This document shows, one piece after another, positions 22,033 to 48,327 of a stretch of 58,763 bases of DNA (the stretch's first letter is position 1; the number at the start of each line of letters is the position of its first letter). This stretch comes from Oscillospiraceae bacterium (lineage in GTDB: Bacteria; Bacillota; Clostridia; Oscillospirales; Ruminococcaceae), in NCBI GenBank assembly GCA_017848115.1, contig JAGAKZ010000032.1, forward strand, positions 1 through 58,763, given 5' to 3'. A program made the translations under genes and the position numbers. Below the pieces are notes generated by a model. That model was not told where the DNA came from and did not search any database. It worked only from the letters and a program-made list of their open reading frames with translations.

Positions 22033-23685
<1,653 letters not shown>

Positions 23686-23790: not shown

Positions 23791-23889
23791 ATAAATATTT
23801 TTTCCTCAAAAAGCGTAACCTTACCGGATTAAACGGTGCTTATTATAGTGAAAGGCTTTAAGTACATGACGAAAGGAGCGAAAAAAATT

Positions 23890-24450
23890 TTGGACGATAA
23901 TATTATTGTTGATTTGTTTTTGATGCGGGATAGAAAGGCTTTGGAACAAACTTCAAAAAAGTATGGTAGTCGTTTACGTTCGATATCTTACAGAATAGTA
24001 GATGATTATCAGACTGCCGAAGAATGTGAAAATGATACTTATATGGAAGCATGGAATACTATTCCGCCTCATGAGCCGAAAAACTATTTGTATGCATTTC
24101 TTGCACGTATCACTCGTCATATTTCTTTGAATTGTTGTCGCAATCGCAGTCGGCTTAAACGTAGTGCTTTTATTGTTGAACTAAGTGAAGAGATTGAACA
24201 ATGTATTCCGGCACCCGATGATGTTGAGTGTCGTATAGATGATACAGAGCTAAGCTATGCAATTAACAGTTTTCTTGGAAGATTAAGTGAAGAAAAACGA
24301 AATATTTTTATTCGCCGGTATTGGTATCTTGATTCTGTTACCGATATCTCAAAGCGTTTTGGTTTATCTGAAAGCAAGATAAAAACCACACTTTTTCGTT
24401 GCCGAAATGAACTTCGCAGGTATCTTGAAGAGGAGGGCTATGCTTTATGA
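23890..24450 (+). CDS. ECF-like sigma-70 family sigma factor
   Basis: 186 residues. Region 2 at about 15-80 (QTAEECENDTYMEAWNTIPP) and region 4 at about 120-180 (VTDISKRFGLSESKIKTTLFR, a helix-turn-helix). The start is taken as TTG 23890, with AAAGGAG 11 bases upstream, because it gives the family opening LDDNIIVDLFLMRD; ATG 23866 is an alternative. Its stop overlaps the next gene by four bases (ATGA), the usual coupling of a sigma factor with its membrane regulator. Confidence 0.85.
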   Translation: MDDNIIVDLFLMRDRKALEQTSKKYGSRLRSISYRIVDDYQTAEECENDTYMEAWNTIPPHEPKNYLYAFLARITRHISLNCCRNRSRLKRSAFIVELSEEIEQCIPAPDDVECRIDDTELSYAINSFLGRLSEEKRNIFIRRYWYLDSVTDISKRFGLSESKIKTTLFRCRNELRRYLEEEGYAL

Positions 24451-25740: not shown

Positions 25741-26976
25741 TTATAGAACAACCGGTGCGTTTTTAACGATTTTTTTATTTTCGCGCATATCTGTATATGC
25801 TTTTTCAAGAATAATATTTATATCAGGTATGTCGCCGTTATTATGGTTTGCGTATCCGACAGCAATGGAAAAAGGATATCCTTCATATTTTGAAAGTTCA
25901 TATTGTAATTCTTTTTCAAAACGCTTCTTTATTGACACTTGTGACAGGCAGATAAATTCGTCACCGTCTGTACGATAGACAGTACCTTTTGAGCCTACAG
26001 CATTCATAAGAAGCTGACCGCATCGTGCAATGGCGTCATCGCCTTTATTTGTCCCATAACTGTTGTTTATATTTTCAAGGTAATTTATATCACATATGGT
26101 TATGTGAATACCTTTACATAACATAGGGTTTTCGGAAAGTTCTTTAATTTGTTCATCAAATGCGGTTTTGTTGAAGGTTTGCGTCATTTCGTCGGTTGCA
26201 TCAGTGAAGTCGACATTGTTTTTTCTGTTTTGTATAATATTTTTTATTATTTCAAACAGAGTTATTACAAGAATCGGAATTATTGTGATTGTCATTATGA
26301 TTCGGACAATAGGTATGTTAAAGGAGTTTGTACTATCGGATGTATCAGTAGACGGTTCATATATATTTTCGGTTTGTTGCTGTTGCTGTGGTGTATAATC
26401 GTAAGCAGGCGAAAGTGTTTCTGTTGTTTGCTGATTTCCGTATGCCGGTTCAATAGTCAACATAAAATCATCTATGTAGATGTCTGTTGTATCACCTGAA
26501 GTTTCAATATACAATACAGCAACCTGTGTATCATCTGCAAAAGTAAAATTTCCTGATAGTTCCGTCCATGTATTTGGTTCGGTACGCATATAACTTATGG
26601 GAGTATAACTTTCACTATAAGTTGAATCCGTTGTTTTAAGCGTACATGATACATTTTCTGGTACACTGTTCTCATGATAAACAAAAAGTTGTACACGATA
26701 TGATGTTCCCGGTATCAGATCTGAACAATCAATTGATGGACCGTGCCAATACTGTTTTCTGTTTGTGGCTTTAAGGCAACTTGAACCTGAGTGACTAACT
26801 GTATTACAAAGTTCCAGCGAGATATTCCCCATAGTGTTTATAAAACCACCGGTTGATCCTTCAAAATCCGATGACTTGACTACACTGTTTTCAGCGTGGA
26901 TCTTTGTGCTATACCCTGATAGTAAAGAGGCTAAAATCAATGCCATCAGGATAAGTGTTGATACCTTTTTATTCAT
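25741..26976 (-). CDS. CBM-TM-GGDEF sensor protein, paralogue 1 (one module, DGDEF)
   Basis: 411 residues. Signal peptide 5-28; one CBM22/CBM4_9-like beta-sandwich module of type A at 36-175 (TNRKQYWHGPS, VYHENS, IYIDDF); a Gln-rich linker; span 224-245; GGDEF-type domain 260-405. The motif is DGDEF at 337-341. The metal-site Asp296 (CDINYL) and the GD pair (KGDDAIARC) remain, but YGH is changed to YGT. Activity as a diguanylate cyclase is uncertain. It follows paralogue 2 by 34 bases, without a promoter of its own, so the two share a transcript. Confidence 0.85.
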   Translation of the reverse strand: MNKKVSTLILMALILASLLSGYSTKIHAENSVVKSSDFEGSTGGFINTMGNISLELCNTVSHSGSSCLKATNRKQYWHGPSIDCSDLIPGTSYRVQLFVYHENSVPENVSCTLKTTDSTYSESYTPISYMRTEPNTWTELSGNFTFADDTQVAVLYIETSGDTTDIYIDDFMLTIEPAYGNQQTTETLSPAYDYTPQQQQQTENIYEPSTDTSDSTNSFNIPIVRIIMTITIIPILVITLFEIIKNIIQNRKNNVDFTDATDEMTQTFNKTAFDEQIKELSENPMLCKGIHITICDINYLENINNSYGTNKGDDAIARCGQLLMNAVGSKGTVYRTDGDEFICLSQVSIKKRFEKELQYELSKYEGYPFSIAVGYANHNNGDIPDINIILEKAYTDMRENKKIVKNAPVVL

Positions 26977-27010
26977 AAGAATTTTTTCACCTCAGAGAAA
27001 ATAGTTTGTA

Positions 27011-28339
27011 TTATTTATTGATGATTTTGATTTTGTATTTTTGTTCTATATTTGAACAGCCGGACTTTATAACTGCTTTATTTGACTGCATTTCGTTTTC
27101 AGCCCTTTGAATAAGCGTATTTATATCAGTACGGTTGTCCTCTCTTGAAAATGAGAATCCTGCAGCGATGAAAAATGGGTATTGCTTGTTTTTATGTGAT
27201 TCTGTATCAAATTCGGTTTCTATTCTGTTTCTGAAAGGTAGTTTTGAGATGCATACAAATGTTCCACCATCTGTACGATATACATGTCCATTCATTCCCA
27301 CTATTTTTGAAAGAATACGGGCACATTTTGTCAGTGCCTCATCGCCTGTGCCGTAGCCGAACGATTCATTTATGGTTTTCATAAAGCATACATCACATAC
27401 GGCTATATAGAGTTCTTTATACATAGACTGGGAAACGGAAAGAGCTTTGATTTTTTTGTTGTATTCTTCTTTTGAAAATACTCCGGTCAGAGAATCTTTT
27501 GCACCGGGTCTTATAAAATTTATTTTGTTGTTTTTGATAAGGTATATGATAAGAATAGTAATTATGGTTAATGCTATAAGAGCAAGCGGAAATATAACAC
27601 TCCATGAATTGTTGTTATCTGAATTACTTTCAGGAATATCGGTAATATCAGAGTCGCTTTTTGATGATTTGGAGGTTTCTGGAGTTGTTGCCTGAGTTTT
27701 TGACATTTCCTGAGTTGAAGCAGTAGTTTCTTTAGTAGCTTCTGTAATTTTTTCGGTAGCTTTTGTGGTTTCTTCTGATACAATGGTTTCACCTTGTTCT
27801 ACAAGGGTGATGGTTATATCGTCTATACATATATCCATAGTGTTTGCGGAAGATTCAATATAGACAGCATATTGTGACACGTCAATAGGTATTGTGAATG
27901 TTCCGCCTATTTTTGTCCACGTCATTGGTGGTGTATCATTTTTTATTATAGTATTATATGACGTACTGGCATCGGATTTTACTGTTTTCATCGTCCAGAG
28001 CAAGTCTTCATTTTTATCAGAATAATGAAATACATATGCACTTATCTCATATGTGTTCCCCGGGACTATATCAGGGTGATCAAAAATTCCTGCACCATTC
28101 CATGATTCTGTTCGATCAGTAATTTTAATACTGGATGTACTGTTGTTGCCATTTGCAGTATCAAGTTCAAGAGTTACAAATCCCATCGGATAAAGACAAC
28201 CGATTTCATTCGGATCATCAAAAGTGTTCGATATTATCAGATCTCCTGGTTCAAAAGCTTCTATGCTCTCTGTTCTAAATGTGGAACTTAGACAGAGCGC
28301 GGAGATTAATATAAATGATGCTATATTTTTTTTGTTCAT
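27011..28339 (-). CDS. CBM-TM-GGDEF sensor protein, paralogue 2 (one module, degenerate DGGTF)
   Basis: 442 residues. Signal peptide 5-28; one type A module at 38-178 (TDRTESWNGAG, FIPIDV-like edge, ICIDDITI); a Thr/Ser/Glu-rich linker (181-240); span 248-267; GGDEF-type domain 280-425. The motif has become DGGTF (357-361): the essential acidic pair is lost, so cyclase activity is not expected. CDVCFMKTINESFGYGTGDE still shows the fold. GAGGTG precedes the ATG. First gene of a two-gene unit with paralogue 1, under a promoter at 28410-28438. Confidence 0.85.
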   Translation of the reverse strand: MNKKNIASFILISALCLSSTFRTESIEAFEPGDLIISNTFDDPNEIGCLYPMGFVTLELDTANGNNSTSSIKITDRTESWNGAGIFDHPDIVPGNTYEISAYVFHYSDKNEDLLWTMKTVKSDASTSYNTIIKNDTPPMTWTKIGGTFTIPIDVSQYAVYIESSANTMDICIDDITITLVEQGETIVSEETTKATEKITEATKETTASTQEMSKTQATTPETSKSSKSDSDITDIPESNSDNNNSWSVIFPLALIALTIITILIIYLIKNNKINFIRPGAKDSLTGVFSKEEYNKKIKALSVSQSMYKELYIAVCDVCFMKTINESFGYGTGDEALTKCARILSKIVGMNGHVYRTDGGTFVCISKLPFRNRIETEFDTESHKNKQYPFFIAAGFSFSREDNRTDINTLIQRAENEMQSNKAVIKSGCSNIEQKYKIKIINK

Positions 28340-28409
28340 TTTATCACCTCTGTGTTATGCAAATTTTGTTAGGCAAATTAATTATAAAATATGAAATCTG
28401 TATAATTAT

Positions 28410-28438
28410 ATTATAACATTTTAATGTAATTTTGTCTA
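28410..28438 (-). promoter_or_regulatory. Array-type promoter of paralogues 2 and 1
   Basis: Minus strand: TAGACA, 17 bases ending AAAATGT, TATAAT. One of six near-identical promoters in the array. Confidence 0.8.
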
Positions 28439-28482
28439 TATGTATTGTTTGATTTGTTTTTTAAGTTTTTACTTGAAAACAT

Positions 28483-28515
28483 AAAACCTCTCATTTATAA
28501 TTTCTGAGAGGTTTT
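28483..28515 (-). terminator. Terminator of paralogue 3
   Basis: A perfect 11-base stem (28483-28493 with 28505-28515) just past the stop codon, T-rich on the minus strand. Confidence 0.75.
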
Positions 28516-28520
28516 AAAAG

Positions 28521-29690
28521 TTAATCAAGGTATTTTGAAGTTAATGAACGACTCAGATTTTCGTTATTTACGACTTCGCTTAAAGCGGCAGAAACAAGTT
28601 CTCTTATATCTACATTTCTTTCATCGCCTTTGGCAAAACCCGTTGAAATTGAAAACGGGTATTCACTTGGTTTTGAGGTTTCATATGCTATCTCTTTTTC
28701 AAGTTGTTCCTTTATTGGTTTTGTTGACATACATACAAATTCATTATTTTGGGTGCGGTATACAGAACCGTATTTTCCGGCAGCTCGGAGAACCATCATG
28801 GCACACCTGTTTATAGCTTCTTCTTTGTGTTTAAGTGTTTCCGGTGTAAAGTTTACGCTGCATACAAGTATGTTGATATCTTTACACATATCCGGTTTTT
28901 CCGAAAGTATAGCTATTTCCTGTTTAAGCTCGTCAGCATCAAATACCTGAAACTTCGGGATGTCAGAATTTTTTTTGCGAGTTTTAAAAGCGACAGCTAA
29001 AATCACAAGAAGTATTAAGGCTACAGCAATGATGATTATTATCACTGTAGGTGAGTTGTTGTTTGATATATCAGTATGTACAGTTGAAGTCGTCAATGCA
29101 GATGTTTTGATTATTTTAATATTATCAATATAAAAAGGGAGTGAATCTGCAGAACCAGACAAATTTTTAGAGGAACTTGTGTTTATTACAAGTTTTATAT
29201 GAGTTGCATCTGCCGGTAGAGTAAAACGACCTGAAAGTTCTGTCCATATCGCAGGCGAAACATCAGTCGATGTAATACATTGTGTAATCATTTTTCCGGC
29301 TGACATGTATTGTATGTTGAAATTAAAGTTGCGGCTTTCTATAGTATCGTTTTCTGAATACAATACATATGCGCTATATGTAGTATTGACCTGTTTGTTG
29401 AGAAAGTCAGCATTTAATGCAATACCATCTGATGAATTTTTTCTGTGGTCAACATATATCGAATAACGACCTGAATTTACATATTCATATGAACGTATAA
29501 GTCTGACTTCTCCATTTTCTATCCACTCTCCGGGGCCGTTTTCAAAATTAAATGTATAGGAGTTTTCAGAATTTATAGTGGTAGTTATGGAGGTGTTTGA
29601 TATATCTTCGGCAAAAATTGGCTGATATAGTGATATATAGAAAGATAATAATGTAAATAATGTGAACAATAGTGTGTATTTCCTTGACAT
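28521..29690 (-). CDS. CBM-TM-GGDEF sensor protein, paralogue 3 (type B module only, degenerate QNNEF)
   Basis: 389 residues. Signal 5-28; one module of the membrane-proximal type B at about 45-197 (RSYEYVNSGRYSIYV, PFYIDNIKI); span 215-235; a GGDEF-related domain 250-375. This copy is the most decayed: the motif reads QNNEF (314-318), and the stretch that normally holds ND-YGH-GD is shortened to TPETLKHKEE. It cannot be a cyclase but could bind a partner. The ATG at 29690 is chosen because AAAGGGTGA lies before it; the frame runs open to 29750. Confidence 0.82.
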   Translation of the reverse strand: MSRKYTLLFTLFTLLSFYISLYQPIFAEDISNTSITTTINSENSYTFNFENGPGEWIENGEVRLIRSYEYVNSGRYSIYVDHRKNSSDGIALNADFLNKQVNTTYSAYVLYSENDTIESRNFNFNIQYMSAGKMITQCITSTDVSPAIWTELSGRFTLPADATHIKLVINTSSSKNLSGSADSLPFYIDNIKIIKTSALTTSTVHTDISNNNSPTVIIIIIAVALILLVILAVAFKTRKKNSDIPKFQVFDADELKQEIAILSEKPDMCKDINILVCSVNFTPETLKHKEEAINRCAMMVLRAAGKYGSVYRTQNNEFVCMSTKPIKEQLEKEIAYETSKPSEYPFSISTGFAKGDERNVDIRELVSAALSEVVNNENLSRSLTSKYLD

Positions 29691-29804
29691 ATGATTCACC
29701 CTTTCTCTCGTAAATGTATGACGAGATTTTTTTACAAAATAAACTCCCAAATAAAAATAAATTGGTTATTATATAGGATGTTATTTGTCAAATGTATTAA
29801 TTTA

Positions 29805-29833
29805 ATTATAACATTTTACAATAAATTTGTCTA
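29805..29833 (-). promoter_or_regulatory. Array-type promoter of paralogue 3
   Basis: Minus strand: TAGACA, 17 bases ending AAAATGT, TATAAT. Confidence 0.8.
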
Positions 29834-29846
29834 TATACACATTAAC

Positions 29847-29882
29847 AAAAAAACTCCTCTATTTTTTGTAGAGGAGTTTTTT
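29847..29882 (-). terminator. Terminator of paralogue 4
   Basis: Stem of 14-15 bases (29847-29861 with 29869-29882), short loop, T run on the minus strand. Confidence 0.85.
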
Positions 29883-29885
29883 AGA

Positions 29886-32078
29886 TCATCTAACCACAAA
29901 CTCAGCGTTTTGTGATTTGATAAGTTGTTTGTTTTCATACATAGCCTTGTCTGCTTTTTCGATCATTTCATCAATATCCGGTACATCTCCGGGTTCATGG
30001 TGTGAAAATCCGACAGCTACTGAGAAAGGATATCCGTTATATTTTGAAGCTTCAAGTTCGATTTCATGCCGAATCTGTTCTTCAAAAGAAACAGGGGACA
30101 TACAAACAAACTCATCGCCGCCTGTTCTGTAAACCAAGCCTTTCTTTCCGACTGCTCTTAGAAGCAGGGCGCCGCATCGTGTTATAGCTTCATCACCCAT
30201 TTCGTGACCATAATTGTCATTTACGAATTTAAGGAAGTTTACATCACATACTGCAATATACATACCTCTGCATATACTTGGATCTTCATGAAGGATATCA
30301 AGTTTCTGTTCATAAGTATTTCGGTTGAGTGTCTGAGTCATTGCATCAAGTGCTGCACTCATAAGAGCACGATTAGTTTTTATTGCATTGAGTATTATTT
30401 TTCGGAGCAGTATAGTGATCACAGAAATGACAAATAAAGATGCAGCGACAATTATACAGATCATAGTAGTTTTCTTCTTTTTTGCTACAGAAGTTCTTAC
30501 GATGCTGATATCATCAACATAAAATGACATCAGATCATCAAGAGTTTCTGTGCCTTCGTCTACTTTTTCTGTCTGAACATACATAGATACATTTTTTGCA
30601 CCTTTTGGAATAGTAAACTCGCCGCTGATTTTTTTCCATTTGCCTTTTTCGACTGTTTCGATTCCGACTTCCTGATAATTAGTGACACCTTCAAAATCAT
30701 ATTGGACATTCAGATTAAATACATGACTGCTTTCATATTCATCACCGTTATACATAACATAAGCACTGTATGTGTTGCTTATTTCACGGTCTACAAAGTC
30801 AATTATTCTTGTAAGACCGCTCCAGTAAACGTCACGGTCAGTTATGTATACTGAATACTCGCCGGAGTGTGCGTATTCGTCTGTACGTACTATTCTGATA
30901 TCGCTTCTTGAATTCCAGTCTTCAAGGTCAGATTCAAATCCGTATGTATACTCATCGTTTTGCGGAGTTTTTTCATTTAAACCTGTATTTGAGTTTTGTA
31001 GTGGTTCATCTGAAAAAATAGATACATTATCTATATAAAAAACAAGATCAGCGTTTGATGCTTCTATATATAAGGAGGGAAAGTTGAAGTCATCAGCAGT
31101 TGTTACTTCGCCTTCAAGCAGTGTCCATTTTCCCGGATTGATCTGGGCACTTGCGACAGAATTGTATGTGGTGGTTCCGTTTGAGTTTTTCCAGTTGATC
31201 GTTGCTGACATAGTTTCCGGTGTAGCACTTTCGTGGTAAACATATACAGCACAATGATATGTTTTGGATGCTTTGAGGTAATCGTCAAGAAATTGTTTTG
31301 GTCCATCCCAGTTGGCATTTCTGTTTGACGCTTGTAGTGATGCTTCTCCGGAAGAATGGTGGTCGTAATCAAGAGTGAGTGTAGCAATATCAACAGACCC
31401 CCAACTCTCATTTGTTCCGGTTTCAAAGTCAGAAAAGAAAATTCTGTGTGGCATTGATGCCGGAGGTGTATATTCCAACTGAGTTTTAGGCTCGCTGCCA
31501 GTCGTTACGTTTTCCGGTGCTTGTGATACTTCAACATCACCTATAAGTTCAAGAGTTACAAAGTCTATATAAAAATCCATAGTAGCATGTGTTACTTCAA
31601 AGTAAAGTGTGGCAGCTGATGAATCGTGCGGAACTGAAAATTCACTGGAAAACTCTGTCCATGTTGAAGGCGGAACGGTTGTAGCGATTATATTGTCATA
31701 TGTATCAGTTCCCATAGAATCTGTATTTTTTAGAGTGCATTTCATATCTTCCTGCGATGCCTGTTCGTGATATACATATGCGGTTATTTTATATTTTTTA
31801 CCCTTTTGCAGTATGGAACTGTTGCTGATAGATGCACCGTTCCAGTTAGCCGATCTTTTTGTTACTTTAAGACAAGAACTGCCTGAATATGCAATATGTT
31901 GATCTATAACAAGTGATGTATTTCCCATTGTAGCCATTCCTTCAAGCGAACCGTTTTCAAAGTCAGCCTGAAGTACGACGTTTTCAGAATCACCATAACA
32001 TATAGCGGATAAAAATGGTATTAGAAAAGTCAGTGCTATTATAAATGATAAACTCCCCCGAATAATCCTGTTTTTCAT
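29886..32078 (-). CDS. CBM-TM-GGDEF sensor protein, paralogue 4 (three modules, intact GGDEF)
   Basis: 730 residues. Signal peptide about 5-29; type A modules at about 37-180 and 214-356; type B module at about 376-527 (TDEYAHSGEYSVYITDR, SFYVDDISI); span 538-558; GGDEF domain 577-725. Intact motif RTGGDEF (GGDEF 653-657), metal-site Asp612 in CDVNFLK, and ND-YGH-GD nucleotide-site residues: probably an active diguanylate cyclase. No RxxD inhibitory site precedes the motif. The ATG at 32078 is used because the upstream GTG lies inside the GAGGTG ribosome site. Own promoter and terminator. Confidence 0.9.
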   Translation of the reverse strand: MKNRIIRGSLSFIIALTFLIPFLSAICYGDSENVVLQADFENGSLEGMATMGNTSLVIDQHIAYSGSSCLKVTKRSANWNGASISNSSILQKGKKYKITAYVYHEQASQEDMKCTLKNTDSMGTDTYDNIIATTVPPSTWTEFSSEFSVPHDSSAATLYFEVTHATMDFYIDFVTLELIGDVEVSQAPENVTTGSEPKTQLEYTPPASMPHRIFFSDFETGTNESWGSVDIATLTLDYDHHSSGEASLQASNRNANWDGPKQFLDDYLKASKTYHCAVYVYHESATPETMSATINWKNSNGTTTYNSVASAQINPGKWTLLEGEVTTADDFNFPSLYIEASNADLVFYIDNVSIFSDEPLQNSNTGLNEKTPQNDEYTYGFESDLEDWNSRSDIRIVRTDEYAHSGEYSVYITDRDVYWSGLTRIIDFVDREISNTYSAYVMYNGDEYESSHVFNLNVQYDFEGVTNYQEVGIETVEKGKWKKISGEFTIPKGAKNVSMYVQTEKVDEGTETLDDLMSFYVDDISIVRTSVAKKKKTTMICIIVAASLFVISVITILLRKIILNAIKTNRALMSAALDAMTQTLNRNTYEQKLDILHEDPSICRGMYIAVCDVNFLKFVNDNYGHEMGDEAITRCGALLLRAVGKKGLVYRTGGDEFVCMSPVSFEEQIRHEIELEASKYNGYPFSVAVGFSHHEPGDVPDIDEMIEKADKAMYENKQLIKSQNAEFVVR

Positions 32079-32140
32079 AATGTTCACCTCTTTGTATTTT
32101 TTGTAAGAGTTCGTATTTCCTTGTGGAATGTGCTAATAAT

Positions 32141-32169
32141 ATTATATCATTTTATTTGCGTTTTGTCTA
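32141..32169 (-). promoter_or_regulatory. Array-type promoter of paralogue 4
   Basis: Minus strand: TAGACA, 17 bases ending AAAATGA, TATAAT. Confidence 0.8.
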
Positions 32170-32183
32170 TATGCACATTGATT

Positions 32184-32235
32184 AAAAATATGCTGTAAAA
32201 TTAAATAGATTAAATAGTTGGTGTGCATATTTTTT
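32184..32235 (-). terminator. Weak terminator-like hairpin after paralogue 5
   Basis: A ten-base stem (32184-32193 with 32225-32234) across a 31-base loop, T-rich on the minus strand. The long loop makes it less certain than the others. Confidence 0.45.
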
Positions 32236-34441
32236 ACTTTTGTTTTTTTATTCTGCTCTGGTAGTTTTCTTTGATAATTTCCTTGTTAAGATACATTATA
32301 CTATCTGCGCGTTTGGTAATTATGTCTATATCCGGAGTATCGCCGTCAAGTTCTTTGTTATAACGTGTACAGCCTATTGCAACAGAAAAAGGATATCCTA
32401 TCGTTTGTTCAGTTGTTGCATTAAGATTTTTTCTTAGTTCTTTTTCAGGATTTGCAGTGCTTATGCAAACAAATTCATCGCCGCCTATTCTGTATACAGT
32501 TCCTTTCTGTCCTGTTGATTTAACAAGCAGCTGAGCACAGCGTATAATTACTTCGTCACCATGTTCATGACCGTAGCTGTCGTTTATAAGTTTTAAAAAA
32601 TTTATGTCACATACGGTTATAAAGATGTCACGGCATTCATCCGGATTTTCTTTGTAGTATTCTATTTTTTCTTCATATGCATTTCTGTTGAGAACATTTG
32701 TCATAGAGTCTATGGACGCTTTCTGAAGTGTACTTCTTATTTTTTTGTTTTTTATGGAGACATTTCTGAAAAGTAATGCAGCTATGGTGAGAAATATAAA
32801 TATGGCAATAATGACAACAATAATAATTATGGTATTTTGTTTCTTTAAACTAGTGCTCATTATTATTCGTACATCGTCTATATAAAAAGAAAGAAGATCG
32901 TCATATGTAAGATTTTCTGTGTTTTCTATATGATCTGACTGAATATACATAGAAACATTTCTTGCATCGGCAGGTACTACAAAGTCACCATGTATTTTGG
33001 TCCATGTATTTTTTTTTATATCTTTTGTCGATATGATCTGATACGTTGTTGTTCCGTCAAGTTCATACTGAAGCTGAAGTAAAAAACGATGATTGTCTGT
33101 ATAGTCTTTTCCGTTATACATGACATACATGGAATAGTTGTAGCTTATATCACGTGTTATAAAATCAATATTTTTTATTGCACCGTTCCAGGTTTCAATA
33201 CGGTCAGATACATAAAGAGAGTAAGAACCGGAGTTACTGTATTCGTTTGTGCGTATTATTCTTATTTCTCCTCTTGAAGTCCAGCCGTTCATATCTTTTT
33301 CAAAGTCATACAGGTGTTCATCAGTTGTGCGCTGTACGATATCACTAAAAACTGATGTTTCAGGTTTTTCCGAAGAAACGCCATATATTTTTACATCATC
33401 AATATAAAAAGGGGCATTTCCTGAGTCTGTTTCTATATAAAGAATAGATGATAAATGATCATGGGTAGAACTGATGCTTCCTTGTAATGTTGTCCATGAA
33501 CGAGGTTTTATCTTTTCGGATGATATCGTAGTATATGATGTATTTCCGTTTGAATTTTTGCATTTTTCTGTCATGGTGAATGTAACTTCACTATTACCTT
33601 CATGATATATATTTACAGAATAGGTATAGATATTGTTACTCATTATATATTTGGTAGTATCAAGTGAAGGACCATCCCATTCTGCTTCACGTTCTGTTAC
33701 AAGAAGGCTGAAATTTCCTGAACAATATTTCTGAGATGAGGATAGTAGTTTGCCTTCTCCCATCGGCATCCAGTTTTCAAGAGTGCCGTCTTCAAAATCA
33801 TTTGTCATGATAAGATTGTCTTTTATAAGTACATCGTTTATATCCTTTATCTGTGTTACATCGACAGGTGGAGTAGTTATCTGGGTATGATCTGCTTTTG
33901 ACATATTCAGTGAATCAATATTGAACTCCAGCGCCGGATTTGGAGATTCTACGTAATAAAGTGCTTCTTTGATTTCAGAAGAAGGAGAGGTAAGAATGCC
34001 TTCTATCATAGTCCATTGCTTTGGAGGTGCCTGTACAGTGTTTATATATTCATACAGAACTTCGCCTGTGGAATCGGTCCATTTCATAGTCCACATAAAT
34101 GTTTCCGTATCCTTGCTTTCGTGATATACATATCCCTGAAAGTGATAAGCTGTATCAGGCTGAACGTTTTCGGTTATAACGAGTGACGGTCCGTTCCAGT
34201 TCTGCTGGCGATTGGTTATCAGAAGACTATATGAACCGCTGTAACTGTGATTTCCGTCAATAGAAGGAGTGCCTGAACCGAGACATCCCCAGCCCTCTAT
34301 GGTTCCACTTTCAAAATCACTGTTAATTATAGGAGCAGATTCGTTATTGTCAGCGTGACATATAAATAATGTTTCTGGGATCAGTAGTTTAAAAATAATA
34401 AGAATGGTTATGAATATGTTCATAGTGTTTTTCTTTTCCAT
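32234..34441 (-). CDS. CBM-TM-GGDEF sensor protein, paralogue 5 (three modules, intact GGDEF)
   Basis: 735 residues. Signal peptide 8-30; type A modules at about 40-180 (TNRQQNWNGPS) and 213-353 (TEREAEWDGPS); type B module at about 378-527 (SDRIETWNGA, SFYIDDVRI); span 537-558; GGDEF domain 576-730. Motif RIGGDEF (GGDEF 653-657), metal-site Asp612 in CDINFLK, ND-YGH-GD present: probably active. It has the same A-A-B order as paralogue 4, so the two are likely recent relatives. GGTG precedes the ATG. Confidence 0.9.
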   Translation of the reverse strand: MEKKNTMNIFITILIIFKLLIPETLFICHADNNESAPIINSDFESGTIEGWGCLGSGTPSIDGNHSYSGSYSLLITNRQQNWNGPSLVITENVQPDTAYHFQGYVYHESKDTETFMWTMKWTDSTGEVLYEYINTVQAPPKQWTMIEGILTSPSSEIKEALYYVESPNPALEFNIDSLNMSKADHTQITTPPVDVTQIKDINDVLIKDNLIMTNDFEDGTLENWMPMGEGKLLSSSQKYCSGNFSLLVTEREAEWDGPSLDTTKYIMSNNIYTYSVNIYHEGNSEVTFTMTEKCKNSNGNTSYTTISSEKIKPRSWTTLQGSISSTHDHLSSILYIETDSGNAPFYIDDVKIYGVSSEKPETSVFSDIVQRTTDEHLYDFEKDMNGWTSRGEIRIIRTNEYSNSGSYSLYVSDRIETWNGAIKNIDFITRDISYNYSMYVMYNGKDYTDNHRFLLQLQYELDGTTTYQIISTKDIKKNTWTKIHGDFVVPADARNVSMYIQSDHIENTENLTYDDLLSFYIDDVRIIMSTSLKKQNTIIIIVVIIAIFIFLTIAALLFRNVSIKNKKIRSTLQKASIDSMTNVLNRNAYEEKIEYYKENPDECRDIFITVCDINFLKLINDSYGHEHGDEVIIRCAQLLVKSTGQKGTVYRIGGDEFVCISTANPEKELRKNLNATTEQTIGYPFSVAIGCTRYNKELDGDTPDIDIITKRADSIMYLNKEIIKENYQSRIKKQK

Positions 34442-34488
34442 TTATTTCACCGCCTTTATTGTGGATATACACAAAATACATTAACATT

Positions 34489-34517
34489 ATTATATCATTT
34501 TATGATGATTTTGTCTA
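34489..34517 (-). promoter_or_regulatory. Array-type promoter of paralogue 5
   Basis: Minus strand: TAGACA, 17 bases ending AAAATGA, TATAAT. Confidence 0.8.
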
Positions 34518-34609
34518 TGTACATATTGCCGAAAGTGTAACAATAAAAATGTATGTATATATATTAAAAGAACGATATTTATAGTGTGATAAAACAAATT
34601 TAAACAAAA

Positions 34610-34648
34610 AAAGAGATATAACAACTTTTAGGTTGATTATATCTCTTT
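34610..34648 (-). terminator. Terminator of paralogues 7 and 6
   Basis: A perfect 12-base stem (34610-34621 with 34637-34648) overlapping the stop codon of paralogue 6. Confidence 0.7.
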
Positions 34649-36401
34649 AATTTTTGTTTTCTTTATTGTCACGACATAACTTAGGGTTTTGCTCTTTACA
34701 TAGTTTCTTATCTTTGTACATTTCCTGATCAGCACGTTCAAGTATAAGCTTTATATCAGGTGTATCGCCGTCAATTTCCTGATTATATTCAGCAAATCCA
34801 ACCGCAACGGAAAATATACTGTTTTCTTCAAAACATGAAGCGTCAGAGATCGCTTTTTTCAATTTGTCATCAAACGGGGCAAATGAAATACATATAAATT
34901 CGTCACCGCCTGTGCGGAAGACATCGCCAGCAACATTTTCAAGGAGGAGAGATGCACATTTACATATAGCTTCATCTCCTGCTTTATGACTGATATTGTC
35001 ATTTATGTACTTAAGAAAATTAATGTCACATATGGCGATGTGCAAAAGTTTAACTTTTTTAGTATCAGAAGAAATATCACTTAAAAATTGCTGATATGCA
35101 TTACGATTTAAGGTTTTTGTCATAGCATCCTTTAATGACAACTCAATAAGTTCCTTCTGTGAAGATTTTTTCTTTTTCCATACAGGCATTAATTTTATAA
35201 ATACTAAGACAACAAGTATACATACAGCTACAATAATAATCGGAATAAGTATTTTTTTACTTTTAGATAATGTTGTGGTTTTCAGCGATATATTATCAAT
35301 ATAAAAATCAGTCAGGTAACTCTTGTGAAGCTGTTCAGATGAATTTTCGCTGTATATAGATATCAGAACATTTTCTGCTTTGGCAGGTAGTTTAAATGTA
35401 CACGAAATTTTTGACCATGTATTTTTTGAAACGGTATCTGAAGAAATTTTTTCCGTGAGGTTTTTTCCGTCAGATTTGTACTGCAGTACAGTATAAAAAT
35501 TTATTTCTTCCGGTGCGTCAGCTGAGTTGTACATAAGATATGTACCATAAGAATATGTTTTATTTTTCTCTAAAAAATCAGCCTTCATTTCGAGAGCATC
35601 GGCAGAACTGGTACGGTTACTTACAAACAGAGAAAACCGGCCTGAATAACTGTATGAGTTTACGATTTCTTTTTTTGCGTTTTTTATGCTAAAAAGTTTG
35701 TTATACTTTTCATCTTCAAAGCCCATAAGAATGTTGTCTTTTTCTAAAACCTGTACAGTTTTTTCGTTAGCTGTTGTCTTTTTTACTTCGGAAACAGTAT
35801 TTTGTGTTGACTGTGTAATCTGTGGTATGTCATCTATATTTGAATAGGTAAGACCTTTTATAGCATAATAATCAACATAAAAATCAATTGTTTCATTTCC
35901 ACATTCCAGGTAGATGCTGGATTCTTTACAGTCTTCATAGTTTTCCGGTACGGTAAAGGAACCACTTATACTTGTCCAGCTACCCGGTGATACATCAGTT
36001 TCTCCTATAAATTTGTAGCTGATCTCATCATTTTTATCCGTAAGACGAGCAGTTGCTTTAAAGTGTAAAGTTTCGAGCCCCTCATGATACAGGTAGGCAG
36101 AAACACTATATACCTCGTTTGCTATGAAAAAATCAGTTGTATCTATGGCTGGACCGTTAAAAAAGTTTTTTCTTCCGGTTATTTTAAGACTTGAAGCACC
36201 TGAATAATAGTTTTTTGTATCAATAGAGAGTACACCATTTCCCATGGCGTGCCATGCGGATGTATCAGAATCTTCAAAATCATAAAGAACAGTTTTTACA
36301 GAAGGAGTATCAGCTGCAACATTTAAGGGTGAGAGAACAGTTACTAAAGCTACAACAAGTGTCAAAATGAGTGTGCTGGGTAAAAAGGTATATTTGTTCA
36401 T
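34647..36401 (-). CDS. CBM-TM-GGDEF sensor protein, paralogue 6 (two modules, intact GGDEF)
   Basis: 584 residues. Signal peptide about 8-30; type A module 38-183 (TGRKNFFNGPAID); Lys/Thr-rich linker; type B module about 225-373 (SNRTSSADALEM, which lacks the usual Trp-Asn-Gly); span 383-404; GGDEF domain 424-575. Motif RTGGDEF (498-502) and Asp459 are kept, but the usual YGH is ISH. Activity is likely but less sure. It starts 20 bases after paralogue 7 ends, with no promoter between, so they are co-transcribed. Confidence 0.88.
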   Translation of the reverse strand: MNKYTFLPSTLILTLVVALVTVLSPLNVAADTPSVKTVLYDFEDSDTSAWHAMGNGVLSIDTKNYYSGASSLKITGRKNFFNGPAIDTTDFFIANEVYSVSAYLYHEGLETLHFKATARLTDKNDEISYKFIGETDVSPGSWTSISGSFTVPENYEDCKESSIYLECGNETIDFYVDYYAIKGLTYSNIDDIPQITQSTQNTVSEVKKTTANEKTVQVLEKDNILMGFEDEKYNKLFSIKNAKKEIVNSYSYSGRFSLFVSNRTSSADALEMKADFLEKNKTYSYGTYLMYNSADAPEEINFYTVLQYKSDGKNLTEKISSDTVSKNTWSKISCTFKLPAKAENVLISIYSENSSEQLHKSYLTDFYIDNISLKTTTLSKSKKILIPIIIVAVCILVVLVFIKLMPVWKKKKSSQKELIELSLKDAMTKTLNRNAYQQFLSDISSDTKKVKLLHIAICDINFLKYINDNISHKAGDEAICKCASLLLENVAGDVFRTGGDEFICISFAPFDDKLKKAISDASCFEENSIFSVAVGFAEYNQEIDGDTPDIKLILERADQEMYKDKKLCKEQNPKLCRDNKENKN

Positions 36402-36421
36402 CGGATAATTTTCACCTCCCT

Positions 36422-38083
36422 TTATTTTCTTGCGAATTCGGGATATTTCTTTTTAATTGATTCTTTGTTAAGATACATGTCTTTATCAGCTCTGGCAATA
36501 ATTTCTTTTATATCAGGTGAATTACCGTCAAGATTTTCGTTGTATGTTGCAAATCCTACAGCTACAGAAAAGGGATATCCCTGATATTTTTGAGCTTCCA
36601 AAGCGAGTTCCTGTGTTATCTCTTTTTTTAGCGAAATACTTGAAATGCATACAAACTCGTCACCGCCGGTTCTGTAAACATCACCTTTTTTTGAAGCGGC
36701 TAACATCAATGCTCCGGCACAGCGTATAATTGCACTATCGCCTTCTTTGTGACCGTAATTGTCGTTCAGATGCTTAAGAAAGTTTACATCGCACACAGCT
36801 ATATGGAGAGATTTGCATTTTTCAGGATTGTTTTCAAGAAACAGAATTTTTTCCTGATATGTATTTCTGTTGAGCGCTTTGGTCATAGCATCTCTCGAAG
36901 CAAGATCAAGAGCTTCTTTTGTTTTCTTTTTCTTGCGTATTATGAGAATTGTGATCAGAGCAATCAAAGCTGTTATCACAATCACACCGCTGATTGTGAT
37001 AGCTGATTTTATTGCTTTTTTTCTGTTCATAAGTGTACTGTCTTCTATATCTATTTTGTCAATATAGAAAGGCATCAGGTCATCAACAGTAGCAAAATCT
37101 ACATTTACTTGTTCGGTTTGAATATAGAATACAACGTTTTTTGCGCCTTCCGGTAAGGTGTATTCGCCTGATATTTTAGACCAACTGTTTTTCTGTATTT
37201 CTTTTCTTGATACTACGTCATATACGATATTTCCGTTATATTCATACTGAAGCTGCAATAAAAACGTATGACTATCCGAGAGTTCACTGCCTGTGTACAT
37301 AATATATGCCGTATACATGTAGCTTACATTTCTGTGGATAGCGTTAATGTTTACAGAAGGACCGTTCCAGGTTTCTGTTCTTCCTGATACATATAATGAA
37401 TATTTTCCGGAAGAACTGTATGCATCAGTTCTTGAAAGCGTTACGTCTCCACGCTGCAACCAGTTTTCAGTATCTTCTTCAAAGTCAAAGTTATATTCCA
37501 CAGCTTTGTTTTCTGCTACAGTAGTTATAGCAGGACTTTCACCTAAAATGTAGATATTGTCTATGTTGAAGATAAGATTTGCATTTTCAGATTCAAAGTA
37601 AATATCAGATGATGCAACATTGAGCGGAGTTTCAACAGTTCCGCTAAGTTTGGTCCATGTATTTGGAGCTACTATTTCGGATGCGATGTTATTGAAAGTT
37701 GTTGTTCCGTCAGAATTTATCCATTTTGATGACCATGATATAGTTTCTTCTTTGTCGCTCTGATGAAATACATATCCTTCAAATGAATAAACGTGTCCGG
37801 GCATTATATAATCTGTTGTTGTAAGTGATGGACCGTTCCAGCTGTCGATTCTTCCTACTGTACGTATACTTGTACTTCCGCTGTATGCGTTTTCTGTATC
37901 TATTTCCAACTGACCGTTTCCGGTTACGTACCATTCATCAAAACCGTTTTCCTCAAAGTCAGAGTGACAAATTGTAGTCATATCTTCCGAATCAGCAAAA
38001 ACGCTGATTATATATAATGGTGAAAATAATGATGACAGAAGAATCAGAAATGATATGGCATATAAAGATATATTTCTTTTCAT
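36422..38083 (-). CDS. CBM-TM-GGDEF sensor protein, paralogue 7 (two modules, intact GGDEF)
   Basis: 553 residues. Signal peptide 8-31; type A module 39-181 (VGRIDSWNGPS); type B module 197-347 (SGRTETWNGPS, PFYIDKIDI); span 362-382; GGDEF domain 397-548. Motif RTGGDEF (473-477), Asp432 in CDVNFLK and ND-YGH-GD all present, so a working diguanylate cyclase is likely. AAGGTGGGG precedes the ATG. First gene of a pair with paralogue 6. Confidence 0.9.
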   Translation of the reverse strand: MKRNISLYAISFLILLSSLFSPLYIISVFADSEDMTTICHSDFEENGFDEWYVTGNGQLEIDTENAYSGSTSIRTVGRIDSWNGPSLTTTDYIMPGHVYSFEGYVFHQSDKEETISWSSKWINSDGTTTFNNIASEIVAPNTWTKLSGTVETPLNVASSDIYFESENANLIFNIDNIYILGESPAITTVAENKAVEYNFDFEEDTENWLQRGDVTLSRTDAYSSSGKYSLYVSGRTETWNGPSVNINAIHRNVSYMYTAYIMYTGSELSDSHTFLLQLQYEYNGNIVYDVVSRKEIQKNSWSKISGEYTLPEGAKNVVFYIQTEQVNVDFATVDDLMPFYIDKIDIEDSTLMNRKKAIKSAITISGVIVITALIALITILIIRKKKKTKEALDLASRDAMTKALNRNTYQEKILFLENNPEKCKSLHIAVCDVNFLKHLNDNYGHKEGDSAIIRCAGALMLAASKKGDVYRTGGDEFVCISSISLKKEITQELALEAQKYQGYPFSVAVGFATYNENLDGNSPDIKEIIARADKDMYLNKESIKKKYPEFARK

Positions 38084-38142
38084 AAATTCCCCACCTTTTG
38101 ATCACTGATGTGATCCCCTATAAGATTTTTAAATCTACTTAT

Positions 38143-38171
38143 ATTATATCATTTTAATAATACGTTGTCTA
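38143..38171 (-). promoter_or_regulatory. Array-type promoter of paralogues 7 and 6
   Basis: Minus strand: TAGACA, 17 bases ending AAAATGA, TATAAT. Confidence 0.8.
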
Positions 38172-38236
38172 TAATATTGCTATTATTTTATAAAAAAATA
38201 TCACTTTTTTGTTTGTATATACTAAAATAAAAACTT

Positions 38237-38269
38237 AAAAGCTCCTTTGAGAGTGCCAAAGGAGCTTTT
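38237..38269 (-). terminator. Terminator of paralogue 8
   Basis: A perfect 13-base stem (38237-38249 with 38257-38269), seven-base loop, directly after the stop codon. Confidence 0.85.
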
Positions 38270-38274
38270 ATTTG

Positions 38275-40023
38275 TCAACGGTTTTGTGGCGAATGTTTTG
38301 CTTTTAGTGTAAGTTTATTTTCGTACATTGCCTGATCGGCACGTGTTATTATCTGTTTGATATCCGGTGGATCCGAATCAAGCTCACTGTCTGCATGAGC
38401 AAATCCGATTGCCACAAAGAAAGGATACCCCTGATAACTTTGTGTTTCATCTTCAAGTTCACGTATTATATCTTCTTCGAGAGAAACATAGGACATACAC
38501 ATAAATTCGTCTCCGCCCGTTCTGTAGACTGTTCCTTTTTTGCCGGCAGCTCTTAAGAATACCTGTGCACAACGTATAATAGCTTCATCGCCCTTTTCAT
38601 GTCCGTAATTATCATTTATATGTCCGAGGAAGTTTATGTCGCAAAGAGCAATGTGCAGATTTTTACATTCTTCAGGATGATCCTCAAGATATATTGCCTT
38701 TTGTTCATAGGTGTTTTTGTCAAGTGCTTGTGTCATAGCATCAAGAGATTCGTTATTGCTGGTAGTGCTTGAATAAAGCTTAGTTTTCTTGCCTGATGAC
38801 TTACGTCTGAGAATAATGGCGGTAAGTATTATCAGCACTATAGCAACGCCTACAATTATAAATATTATATTTCCGCCTTTATTATTGTTACTGATGGCTG
38901 TAGGATCAGCAATAATTACGTTGTCAATATAAAATGGAATGAGATTGTCTGTAGTGTTATCGTTAACTTCCGGCGTTTGCAGATACAGTACAACATTTGC
39001 TGCGCCTGCAGGTACTGCAAAGCTTCCGGTGAGTGTTTTCCATTCATCTTTAGTTACCGATTCTCTTACGATTTCCTGATATACTACATTTCCGTCATAA
39101 TCATACTGGAGATTTAACTGAAAGTCCTGGCTTTCAGCAGCGCCTTCTTCGTTGTACATCACATCAGCAGAATACTGATAGGTCAGATTCCTCTGAATAA
39201 AGTCTGCATTTACCGATGGACCGTTCCAGTTTGATATTCTGTCGGTAGTGTATAACGAATACTGTCCTTCGGTGAAGTGCTGATCATTTCTCATAAGTCT
39301 TACTTCGCCGCGTCCTATCCATCTCTCAAAATCGTTTTCAAATGAATATTTGTATTCGTTCTGATCGATTATAATTTGTTCTGAGTTATCGTCACCGGCT
39401 GGCTCTTGCTCCTGGCCGGCGTTTTCGTTTTTGCTCTGATTCTGGTTTCCTGAATTTGAACCGGAACCGCCGGCTTCATATATTTTTACTGCGTCAACAC
39501 AAAAGTTAAGGTCGACATTAAGTGATTCAAAGTATGTCGTTGTAGAAACATTGTCAGCAGGAACTTCTATTGATCCTATTATCGGAGTCCATTCTCCCGG
39601 TGGTACATCAGTCGTTCTGACATTATTGAATACATCTATTCCGTCAGAACCGACAAATTTTATGGACCATGTGATGGAATCCATAGTTGGTGCTTCATGG
39701 TATACATATGCTTCAAAAGTATATTTTTTCCCGCTTTCAAGAATATTTGTTGCATTTAATGCCGGTCCGTTCCAACTTTGAGTACGTTCAGACATCATAA
39801 GGCATGAACTTCCGGAATAACTGTTAGCAGAATCAATTGTCATAGTACCTGTTCCGCCAAGCGGTGACCAGCCGGAAATACTTCCGTCCTCAAAATCAGC
39901 TGAAAATATAGGTTCTTTTTCATCGGCATATATATAATTATTGTCTGATTGTATTGGTGATGATGCCAAAATCATTGAAACAGCAACTATTTTTGCTAAT
40001 AACGATGATATTTTTAATCTCAT
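38275..40023 (-). CDS. CBM-TM-GGDEF sensor protein, paralogue 8 (two modules, intact GGDEF)
   Basis: 582 residues. Signal peptide about 5-25; type A module 41-183 (SERTQSWNGPA); Gly/Asn/Gln-rich linker 184-218; type B module 224-372 (TDRISNWNGPS, PFYIDNVII); span 385-405; GGDEF domain 427-575. Motif RTGGDEF (503-507), Asp462 in CDINFL and ND-YGH-GD present: probably active. GAGGTGG precedes the ATG. It is the most upstream member of the array and is divergent from a LacI-family gene. Confidence 0.9.
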   Translation of the reverse strand: MRLKISSLLAKIVAVSMILASSPIQSDNNYIYADEKEPIFSADFEDGSISGWSPLGGTGTMTIDSANSYSGSSCLMMSERTQSWNGPALNATNILESGKKYTFEAYVYHEAPTMDSITWSIKFVGSDGIDVFNNVRTTDVPPGEWTPIIGSIEVPADNVSTTTYFESLNVDLNFCVDAVKIYEAGGSGSNSGNQNQSKNENAGQEQEPAGDDNSEQIIIDQNEYKYSFENDFERWIGRGEVRLMRNDQHFTEGQYSLYTTDRISNWNGPSVNADFIQRNLTYQYSADVMYNEEGAAESQDFQLNLQYDYDGNVVYQEIVRESVTKDEWKTLTGSFAVPAGAANVVLYLQTPEVNDNTTDNLIPFYIDNVIIADPTAISNNNKGGNIIFIIVGVAIVLIILTAIILRRKSSGKKTKLYSSTTSNNESLDAMTQALDKNTYEQKAIYLEDHPEECKNLHIALCDINFLGHINDNYGHEKGDEAIIRCAQVFLRAAGKKGTVYRTGGDEFMCMSYVSLEEDIIRELEDETQSYQGYPFFVAIGFAHADSELDSDPPDIKQIITRADQAMYENKLTLKAKHSPQNR

Positions 40024-40088: not shown

Positions 40089-40117
40089 ATTATAACATTT
40101 TTAGATGCTTTTGTCCA
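40089..40117 (-). promoter_or_regulatory. Array-type promoter of paralogue 8
   Basis: Minus strand: TGGACA, 17 bases ending AAAATGT, TATAAT. The -35 differs from the other five by one base. Confidence 0.78.
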
Positions 40118-40195
40118 TATGCATATTAATAAAATAAACTAAAATTATCTGTACAAAATTAATATATTTTTATTTACAAAAGTATGTCAAATTAA

Positions 40196-40269: not shown

Positions 40270-41262
40270 TTGGAAGTTACAATAAAAGACGTTGCTAAAC
40301 TTGCAGGCGTTTCTGTCGCTACGGTTTCGAGAGTATTGAATAATAGTGCGATTGTTTCACCGGAAACAGCTAAAAGCGTGAGTGAAGCGATAAAAGCATT
40401 GAATTACAGACCAAATTTTCTTGGAAGAAATCTTAGAAAAAGAGAGACAAATGTTATTTTAGCTCTTATACCGTCTACAGAACAGACTTATTACAGCGAA
40501 ATTCTTCATGGTATGCAGGTAAAGGCGGCGGATTACGGATATGATATTTTTATGAGTGTTACAAACAGTTATCTGCAACTTGAAGAAAAACTTCTTGGTA
40601 TGCTGTATAACAGAATAGTTGATGCTGCTATACTTCTTGGAACACAGCTTAGCAGCGAACGACTAAATGAGATAGCTGATACGGATTATATAGCACTTTG
40701 CTGTGAAGGCGTAGAGGGTGCTGATGTTCTCAATATAACAATAGACAATGAAAAAGCAGCTTATGACGCAGTAAACTACCTTATATCCATAGGTCACAGG
40801 CAGATAGGTATGGTATCTACTGAAGTAAGAGCACCTTCATCTGTTGCCAGAGAAAAAGGGTATATGAGAGCTTTGCATGACGCAGGTATACCGTTTGATG
40901 ATAAATATCTTTACAGAGGAAGTTATGATTTTTCAAGTGGTGGAGAGGCACTTGAAAAGTTTATGGAGCTTGACAGGAAACCTACAGGTATATTTGCCAT
41001 ATCTGATTTTCTTGCTGCAGGAGTAGTGAAAAAAGCATCTTCACTCGGGATCAAAACAGGAAGGGATTTTTCTGTTATGGGATTTGATAATATAAGCATG
41101 GCAGGGATGTATACGCCATCGATCTCAACTGTAGAACAACCATGTTTTAAAATGGGTGTAAAAGTCGTGGAGCTTCTTATCGAAAATATGAATGGTTGTT
41201 CCCATAAGGGAGATCTGATATTACCCCACAGCCTTGTTTTAAGAGAAACAACAGGGGACTGA
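40270..41262 (+). CDS. LacI-family transcription regulator
   Basis: 330 residues. Helix-turn-helix at 4-23 (IKDVAKLAGVSVATVSR) and hinge; residues about 60-328 are the sugar-binding (periplasmic-binding-like) domain, ending in the usual VELLIENM region. The start is TTG 40270 with AGGAGG eight bases upstream. Such proteins switch carbohydrate genes in response to a sugar. It is divergent from the array and could control it or another sugar operon; the inducer is unknown. Confidence 0.92.
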   Translation: MEVTIKDVAKLAGVSVATVSRVLNNSAIVSPETAKSVSEAIKALNYRPNFLGRNLRKRETNVILALIPSTEQTYYSEILHGMQVKAADYGYDIFMSVTNSYLQLEEKLLGMLYNRIVDAAILLGTQLSSERLNEIADTDYIALCCEGVEGADVLNITIDNEKAAYDAVNYLISIGHRQIGMVSTEVRAPSSVAREKGYMRALHDAGIPFDDKYLYRGSYDFSSGGEALEKFMELDRKPTGIFAISDFLAAGVVKKASSLGIKTGRDFSVMGFDNISMAGMYTPSISTVEQPCFKMGVKVVELLIENMNGCSHKGDLILPHSLVLRETTGD

Positions 41263-48287: not shown

Positions 48288-48327
48288 TTTTTTGCCTCTT
48301 TCATAATGGTTTTGGTTTAAGTTGAAT

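Follow-up and report, generated by a model that had tools for sequence, protein, structure and literature searches.

An array of eight CBM22-GGDEF membrane proteins in an Oscillospiraceae bacterium, predicted xylan-type receptors linked to cyclic di-GMP

Membrane diguanylate cyclases such as DgcN/YfiN and DgcJ join an outer sensor, a membrane span and an inner GGDEF domain, and the RsgI proteins of Clostridium thermocellum carry carbohydrate-binding modules (CBMs) and act through proteolytic release of an alternative sigma factor. According to two reports, the RsgI/sigma-I system of this cellulosomal bacterium comprises nine paralogous single-pass sensors of outside substrates (PMC12203970, PMC4711584). 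For Fibrobacter succinogenes, a rumen fibre degrader, one study describes levels of cyclic di-GMP (c-di-GMP) that are ∼2.5-fold higher on cellulose, as well as two GGDEF proteins that become more abundant on this substrate (PMC6851124). Here, we describe an array of eight consecutive minus-strand genes (g1 to g8, positions 25741-40023, with g8 first in transcription order) on a contig of an Oscillospiraceae bacterium of the gut that digests fibre (JAGAKZ010000032.1, assembly GCA_017848115.1). The whole stretch analysed, 58,763 nucleotides (nt) in length, is referred to as the window. The encoded proteins combine outer CBM22 modules with an inner GGDEF-type domain, and we consider it probable (roughly 0.6, judged from residues and gene context) that they are xylan-type receptors that make c-di-GMP to control attachment to fibre.

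With DgcN/YfiN and DgcJ, the array proteins share the layout of outer sensor, span and GGDEF domain, and g7 matches the NCBIfam DgcN/YfiN model below its cut-off (71.9 versus 325 bits). What sets them apart from these cyclases is a sensor made of CBM22 modules, the lack of an I-site, and the arrangement of up to eight genes, conserved pseudo-cyclases among them, in a promoter-bearing array. As a paralogous set of single-pass, outside-sensing proteins in a cellulosomal bacterium, RsgI/sigma-I is the nearest working analogue. Unlike RsgI, which acts by sigma factor release, the array proteins have GGDEF as their output domain, and no RsgI-type (sigma-I-binding, anti-sigma) Pfam domain was found in any of the eight at E values up to 1. 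The tandem arrangement of CBM22 modules is known from CBM22-CBM22-GH10 xylanases, four of five checked having the same residue pattern and order, but the partners of the tandem in the array proteins are a membrane span and a GGDEF domain instead of a glycoside hydrolase. F. succinogenes is comparable as a fibre degrader of the rumen, one whose c-di-GMP is raised by cellulose; however, its three tabulated GGDEF proteins are listed without a CBM, and the two raised ones are called orphan response regulators (PMC6851124).

The sequence-only reading of the window, made earlier by a model, knew of no described system of this form, and we found none in the literature searched, in which subscription journals were mostly outside scope: no paper mentioned both CBM22 and GGDEF, and no account was found of ruminococci noticing solid plant fibre via c-di-GMP. 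Among titles and abstract beginnings on Ruminococcus and GGDEF, none was about such receptors, the nearest dealing with autoinducer-2 signalling in the rumen; the word GGDEF is missing from the main text of two ruminococcal genome papers, and c-di-GMP goes unmentioned in a review of how hemicellulases are regulated. The kind of receptor itself is known; the CBM22 sensor, the expanded array and the conserved pseudo-cyclases would mark this predicted diguanylate cyclase receptor as an apparently undescribed variant.

Array proteins and their CBM22 modules

The sequence-only reading had proposed eight consecutive same-strand genes, each encoding a signal peptide, one to three CBM22/CBM4_9-like modules, one membrane span and a GGDEF-type domain. 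Open reading frames (ORFs) were found exactly where it placed the genes. Pfam CBM_4_9 was above cut-off in 8/8 array proteins, and a profile built from the array's own modules counted 15 of them, one to three per protein (1, 1, 1, 3, 3, 2, 2 and 2 from g1 to g8). A hydropathy scan detected a single internal membrane segment in all eight. The remaining two features were recovered in part: a hydrophobic N-terminal segment exceeded the threshold of the scan in six proteins, g2 and g3 staying below it with shorter segments visible by eye, and GGDEF exceeded the Pfam cut-off in seven, the likeness of g3 being recognisable only via its paralogues. Chance likeness was excluded by the E values of the module and GGDEF profiles, which were far too low, and mis-assembly by G241, the closest sampled genome, in which all eight genes recur in unchanged order with diverged sequence. 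The window's genome (G000; 3.34 Mb, 81% complete) yielded 39 GGDEF and 36 CBM_4_9 matches, and comparison of their positions placed both in one ORF only within the array.

The assignment of the outer modules to CBM22 was borne out. A profile of 17 rows (the 15 array modules and two modules of a xylanase in the window) matched eight distinct solved sequences at E values up to 0.01, all of them chains of xylanase Y or C (E values of 1.8e-45 to 1e-18), which we take to be CBM22, in agreement with the titles of published papers. The pattern (S/T)xRxxxWNGP, said in the sequence-only reading to be shared with the xylanase, occurred in its exact form in only 4/15 modules; a looser R-x3-W-x-G could be read in 12/15. 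The xylanase itself (8361..11609, minus strand) has the order CBM22-GH10-CBM22-dockerin-esterase.

Ligand positions were compared at R25, W53, Y103 and E138 in the numbering of CBM22-2 of C. thermocellum Xyn10B (CtXyn10B), which presumably are the xylan-binding positions; their roles are said to have been described by Xie in 2001. Three of the four residues were kept in 10 of the 15 window modules, two in three modules, and none in two (that of g3 and the second of g6). A family-wide survey of 42 proteins from 11 sources revealed a pattern that depends on the place of the module. In proteins with two or three modules, the membrane-proximal one has RWYQ at the four positions in 27/36 cases. Distal modules have an aromatic residue at position 53 in 39/40 and E138 in 39/40, and R25 in 0/40. 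The six single-module proteins comprise four with MWYE and two g3 orthologues with NSTN or NSSN. Of five checked CBM22-CBM22-GH10 xylanases from three other genera, four have VWYE or WWYE in the distal module and one RWYE, and RWYQ is proximal in all five. The order xWYE-RWYQ, with distal R25 missing, prevails in the array proteins and is that of four of these five xylanases. Beyond the family, RWYQ was encountered in 10 modules of nine proteins (L049 and L059 belong to a single protein), and each of these proteins has GH10 or GH11. Given this shared pattern and order and the company that RWYQ modules keep elsewhere, the ectodomain looks like a xylanase binding tandem transferred onto a membrane signalling protein. 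In the xylanase of the window, the second CBM22 reads RWYE and the first is without ligand residues.

The same residues bear on whether the receptors might sense a self glycan, such as the cell's own wall, capsule or biofilm matrix, and not plant xylan. Specificity may differ from that of canonical CBM22, since the R25 equivalent is present in none of the 40 distal modules, and the array lies outside any enzyme operon in the window; however, four of the five checked tandem xylanases have an identical residue pattern and order of modules, and a receptor gene in a relative from goat caecum adjoins a xylanase gene. We regard a self glycan as a distinctly improbable ligand.

Starting from g8, two modules each were found in g8 (38275..40023; 582 amino acids [aa]; distal LWFE, proximal RWYQ; membrane segment at residues ∼380-409), g7 (36422..38083; 553 aa; TWFE and RWYQ) and g6, which begins 20 bp behind g7 (34647..36401; 584 aa; MFYE, and a second module without the four residues). 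Three modules each are present in g5 (32234..34441; 735 aa; LWYE, MWYE and RWYQ) and g4 (29886..32087; 733 aa; MWYE, VWYE and RWYQ). The remaining genes encode one module: g3 (28521..29750; 409 aa, with the start by eye probably at ∼29690) a CBM22-like one without the four ligand residues, g2 (27011..28339; 442 aa) and g1 (25741..26976; 411 aa; 34 bp behind g2) one with MWYE each.

Inner GGDEF domains and paralogues that lack them

A profile of all eight inner domains matched 48 solved sequences at E values up to 0.001, the best being DosC (1.8e-13). At the positions to which, in PleD numbering, we assign roles in Mg binding, GTP binding or catalysis, g4 to g7 retain the equivalents of D327, K332, N335, H340, D344, R366 and K442 together with the GGDEF motif; the R446 equivalent is K, as in most other aligned GGDEF domains of the window's genome. 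The motif is likewise intact in g8, in which the K332 equivalent is G in both the window and G241. Judged from these residues, g4 to g7, and perhaps g8, are predicted producers of c-di-GMP. The motif is degenerate in g1 (DGDEF, with K332E and H340T), g2 (DGGTF) and g3 (QNNEF, with the Mg-site D lost), and further losses occur in g1 to g3. In its original form, the reading that the whole family makes c-di-GMP is therefore unsupported, g1 to g3 being without catalytic residues and g8 without one.

Despite these losses, the three domains do not give the impression of unconstrained decay. G241 has the same distribution, with g4 to g7 intact, G in g8, and g1 to g3 degenerate but with different letters. 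Ratios of nonsynonymous to synonymous substitution (dN/dS) against G241 were 0.13 to 0.25 over whole genes in seven cases, and for the GGDEF part 0.07 in g1, 0.28 in g2, 0.07 in g3, 0.08 in g4, 0.18 in g5, 0.13 in g7 and 0.04 in g8 (g6 was not computable); all these values are rough, with synonymous sites near saturation (proportion of synonymous differences, 0.57 to 0.82). Across 35 GGDEF homologues, the motif was kept in 29 and the checked catalytic positions in 27. The RxxD I-site, which is common in diguanylate cyclases and not required, was found in 0/35. This bears on the idea that the domains are receptors for c-di-GMP or GTP and do not synthesise c-di-GMP: degenerate GGDEF domains elsewhere can be c-di-GMP receptors, but they are so via the I-site that is missing in 35/35 here, and we consider such a role highly improbable.

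Seven sources have one member with the same ectodomain (two CBM22 modules) and membrane span, in which a charged, low-complexity inner tail replaces GGDEF (L176:9732-11483, L177:11076-12809, L178:7291-8961, L179:9918-11753, L180:6997-8868, L181:10302-11864 and L184:3-1739, the last one cut). A conserved peptide, FxIETFSY...PFxGF, stands at the C-terminal end of six of these seven proteins; the gene of the seventh is truncated at a contig end. The tail paralogues possibly anchor to an inner partner. That seven of 42 family proteins carry the ectodomain on such a tail, and that three GGDEF domains of the window are degenerate yet conserved in G241, would fit proteins that are mainly membrane-anchored adhesins, holding the cell on xylan-coated fibre with GGDEF as a relic or a protein-interaction domain. 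A mere anchor, however, would need neither the motif nor the checked catalytic positions, which most of the 35 homologues keep, and where the motif is intact the GGDEF part has low dN/dS (0.04 to 0.18 in g4, g5, g7 and g8). A mainly adhesive function appears unlikely to us.

The c-di-GMP network and a proposed mechanism

The c-di-GMP network that the sequence-only reading presupposed was found in the window's genome, with phosphodiesterase-type and receptor elements in the form of 14 EAL domains, two c-di-GMP-I riboswitches and two MshEN domains; there was no PilZ match in this genome. Of the two MshEN proteins, one is a PilB-type ATPase (544 bits, below the NCBIfam PilB cut-off of 676), which carries the NCBIfam c-di-GMP motif over cut-off (50.9 versus 38 bits). 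Its gene belongs to a pilus cluster that by Pfam includes T2SSF and pilin genes and in which other genes read as PilT-like and prepilin-peptidase-like.

c-di-GMP-I riboswitches occur in all 11 genomes of the genus, two to six in each and 41 in total, one of them below cut-off. Gene contexts were obtained for 30 of the 41. Fourteen of these 30 loci (L187, L227, L228, L230, L232-L239, L247 and L248) precede, by ∼100 to 200 nt, a single secreted protein family, an arrangement found in 11/11 genomes; a transglutaminase-type core was seen in both family members that were scanned, and a dockerin in the member from the window's genome (L221:6679-8730). Three loci precede type IV pilins, twice in G096 and once in G297 (L229, L231 and L254). 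Five lie 470 to 680 nt before a gene read as manA, in five genomes, and eight are mixed. The manA-side matches (L188, at G000:C42:57204-57321, L242, L244, L246 and L252) are weaker and longer than the others, and at L188 no ORF of ≥100 aa is present in the 550 bp between the riboswitch match and manA.

In the mechanism that we propose, the CBM22 modules would bind, outside the cell, to xylan or to a comparable polymer of the plant wall. Ligand engagement, perhaps through clustering of receptors on insoluble polymer, would alter the dimerisation of the inner GGDEF domains, and the intact members g4 to g7, perhaps also g8, would then synthesise c-di-GMP. Since the RxxD I-site is missing, the usual product inhibition should be missing in these members, too. 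c-di-GMP would act via the MshEN-bearing pilus-type ATPase, and via the riboswitches that lie before the transglutaminase-type family and, in two genomes, before pilins, so that attachment to fibre would be favoured. g1 to g3 would be conserved pseudo-cyclases that probably modulate the active members as heterodimer partners, or else serve as binding-only partners or decoys. Both the proposed input and the proposed output are plausible for this niche, given the rise of c-di-GMP in F. succinogenes on cellulose (PMC6851124) and the binding of Ruminococcus albus type IV pili to cellulose (PMC13234629). A further study describes binding of arabinoxylan and insoluble xylans by CBM22.2 of a Caldicellulosiruptor enzyme (PMC8280721).

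Several observations weigh against this mechanism. The full set of four ligand residues occurs in 0/15 window modules, the module of g3 and the second of g6 keep none, and 9/36 proximal modules across the family are not RWYQ. A characterised CBM22 binds insoluble cellulose too, according to the same study (PMC8280721), so that xylan is not the sole ligand candidate. Three of the eight GGDEF domains (g1 to g3) are degenerate, and the tail paralogues, 7/42 family proteins, indicate that the ectodomain can serve something else. On the output side, riboswitches before pilins were found in 2/11 genomes only, and 32 further GGDEF matches in the window's genome could feed the same effectors. Genome G300 has a riboswitch before a transglutaminase-type gene yet no full-length receptor, which makes the effectors independent of the array; array and effectors are linked by coexistence alone.

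If c-di-GMP-producing xylan-type receptors are nevertheless what the array encodes, they would connect contact with a polymer directly, and in a way open to testing, to pili and fibre-related secreted proteins, by a route that runs alongside the clostridial RsgI route and differs from it, and the conserved pseudo-cyclases would be a clean natural case for the role of dead GGDEF domains. A more far-reaching version, which we offer tentatively and hold to be possible but doubtful, is a complete attachment circuit from wall polymer to c-di-GMP. Here, xylanase-derived tandems would serve as cyclase ectodomains, the eight-gene array would read polymers in a graded or combinatorial manner, pseudo-cyclases would tune the response as heterodimers, and pili and cellulosome-type secreted proteins would be switched on via the MshEN ATPase and the riboswitches.

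Distribution, promoters and neighbouring genes

A search of 11 genomes of the window's genus located the family in 10, each with a full-length protein of CBM-CBM-span-GGDEF type; none was found in G300. In a tree, every array gene groups with the corresponding gene of G241 (8/8, ultrafast bootstrap 100%); support for the deeper forks is weak, and the tree carries a long-branch warning. Outside the genus, no full-length match was present in 292 further genomes of the family (among the matches listed), 393 of the order and 397 of the phylum; these samples partly overlap, and the best three to four candidates per genome were scored, so that a rare CBM-GGDEF fusion could be missed. Three matches passing 1e-45 in the order and phylum samples (G019, G996 and G1036) cover only the CBM part. 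In a named genome collection, one full-length match was obtained among the best 80 of 551 relatives, a selection that may omit near kin of the window. It stems from a metagenome-assembled genome from goat caecum that is labelled Ruminococcus (L069:9977-14148), in which a single receptor gene ends ∼95 bp before an ORF for a GH11-CBM22-dockerin-esterase protein. In these samples, the predicted single-pass receptors are almost confined to a single genus.

In seven genomes (the window's, G241, G096, G292, G181, G297 and G299), the whole array lies between the genes for GroEL (22057..23685, plus strand in the window) and a LacI-type regulator (40270..41262, plus strand, divergent from the array), and the gene after the latter reads as a CCA-adding enzyme. 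The complete arrays comprise 8, 8, 4, 4, 4, 3 and 3 members; the numbers with GGDEF are 8, 8, 3, 3, 3, 2 and 2. G302 and G301 are consistent with the same arrangement on shorter contigs. The LacI-type gene is the boundary in all nine genomes with that flank recovered, and GroEL is the other boundary in most of the genus. G298 differs: other genes take the place of GroEL on the LacI contig, and GroEL is found on another contig of 4.2 kb, next to a third member.

Six of the eight genes share the promoter TATAGACAA-N10-AAATGNTATAAT with at most one mismatch; it is absent before g1 and g6. At up to three mismatches, the window has seven matches versus 0.04 expected for a pattern derived from these same sites. 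The whole genome has 47 matches versus 6 for the reversed pattern, and six of its seven matches at up to one mismatch lie in the array. On the minus strand, these promoters precede g8 (40089..40119), g7-g6 (38143..38173), g5 (34489..34519), g4 (32141..32171), g3 (29805..29835) and g2-g1 (28410..28440). A terminator-like hairpin of 15 pairs separates g8 from g7 (38236..38270, minus strand); in G241 this hairpin, another before g3 and the array promoters are conserved, and the promoter flanks have diverged. From the arrangement of these elements, we infer about six transcription units (g8, g7-g6, g5, g4, g3 and g2-g1), and that gene and promoter were duplicated together.

The array promoter resembles an ordinary extended -10 promoter with TAGACA. 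General scans of the window gave no excess of promoter-like (61 versus 66.2 expected) or terminator-like sites (8 versus 7.4), and an Rfam scan of the window returned two tRNAs and nothing else. A link to the LacI-type regulator was rejected: the LacI-operator-like palindrome upstream of its gene is the only exact match in the window, and two matches with three mismatches, neither of them before an array gene, are within chance. A wider regulon via the array promoter was not found, only one of the seven genome matches at up to one mismatch lying outside the array. Two TAGACA-type matches with two mismatches (C8 and C13) precede a resolvase/transposase-like pair and a gene that reads as protein-kinase-like.

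Between GroEL and the array there are two ORFs in the window and at least one in G181. Those of the window (23836-25658) are an extracytoplasmic-function sigma factor gene and an overlapping gene that by eye is anti-sigma-like and has no Pfam or NCBIfam match; the pair has no match at the corresponding place in G241. In G298, a different GGDEF protein without a CBM is encoded near the receptor genes (L181:5674-7179), on the side taken by GroEL elsewhere. Finally, the window encodes two adjacent papain-type cysteine proteases (46542-50052), both of which also carry a lectin-like domain and a dockerin.

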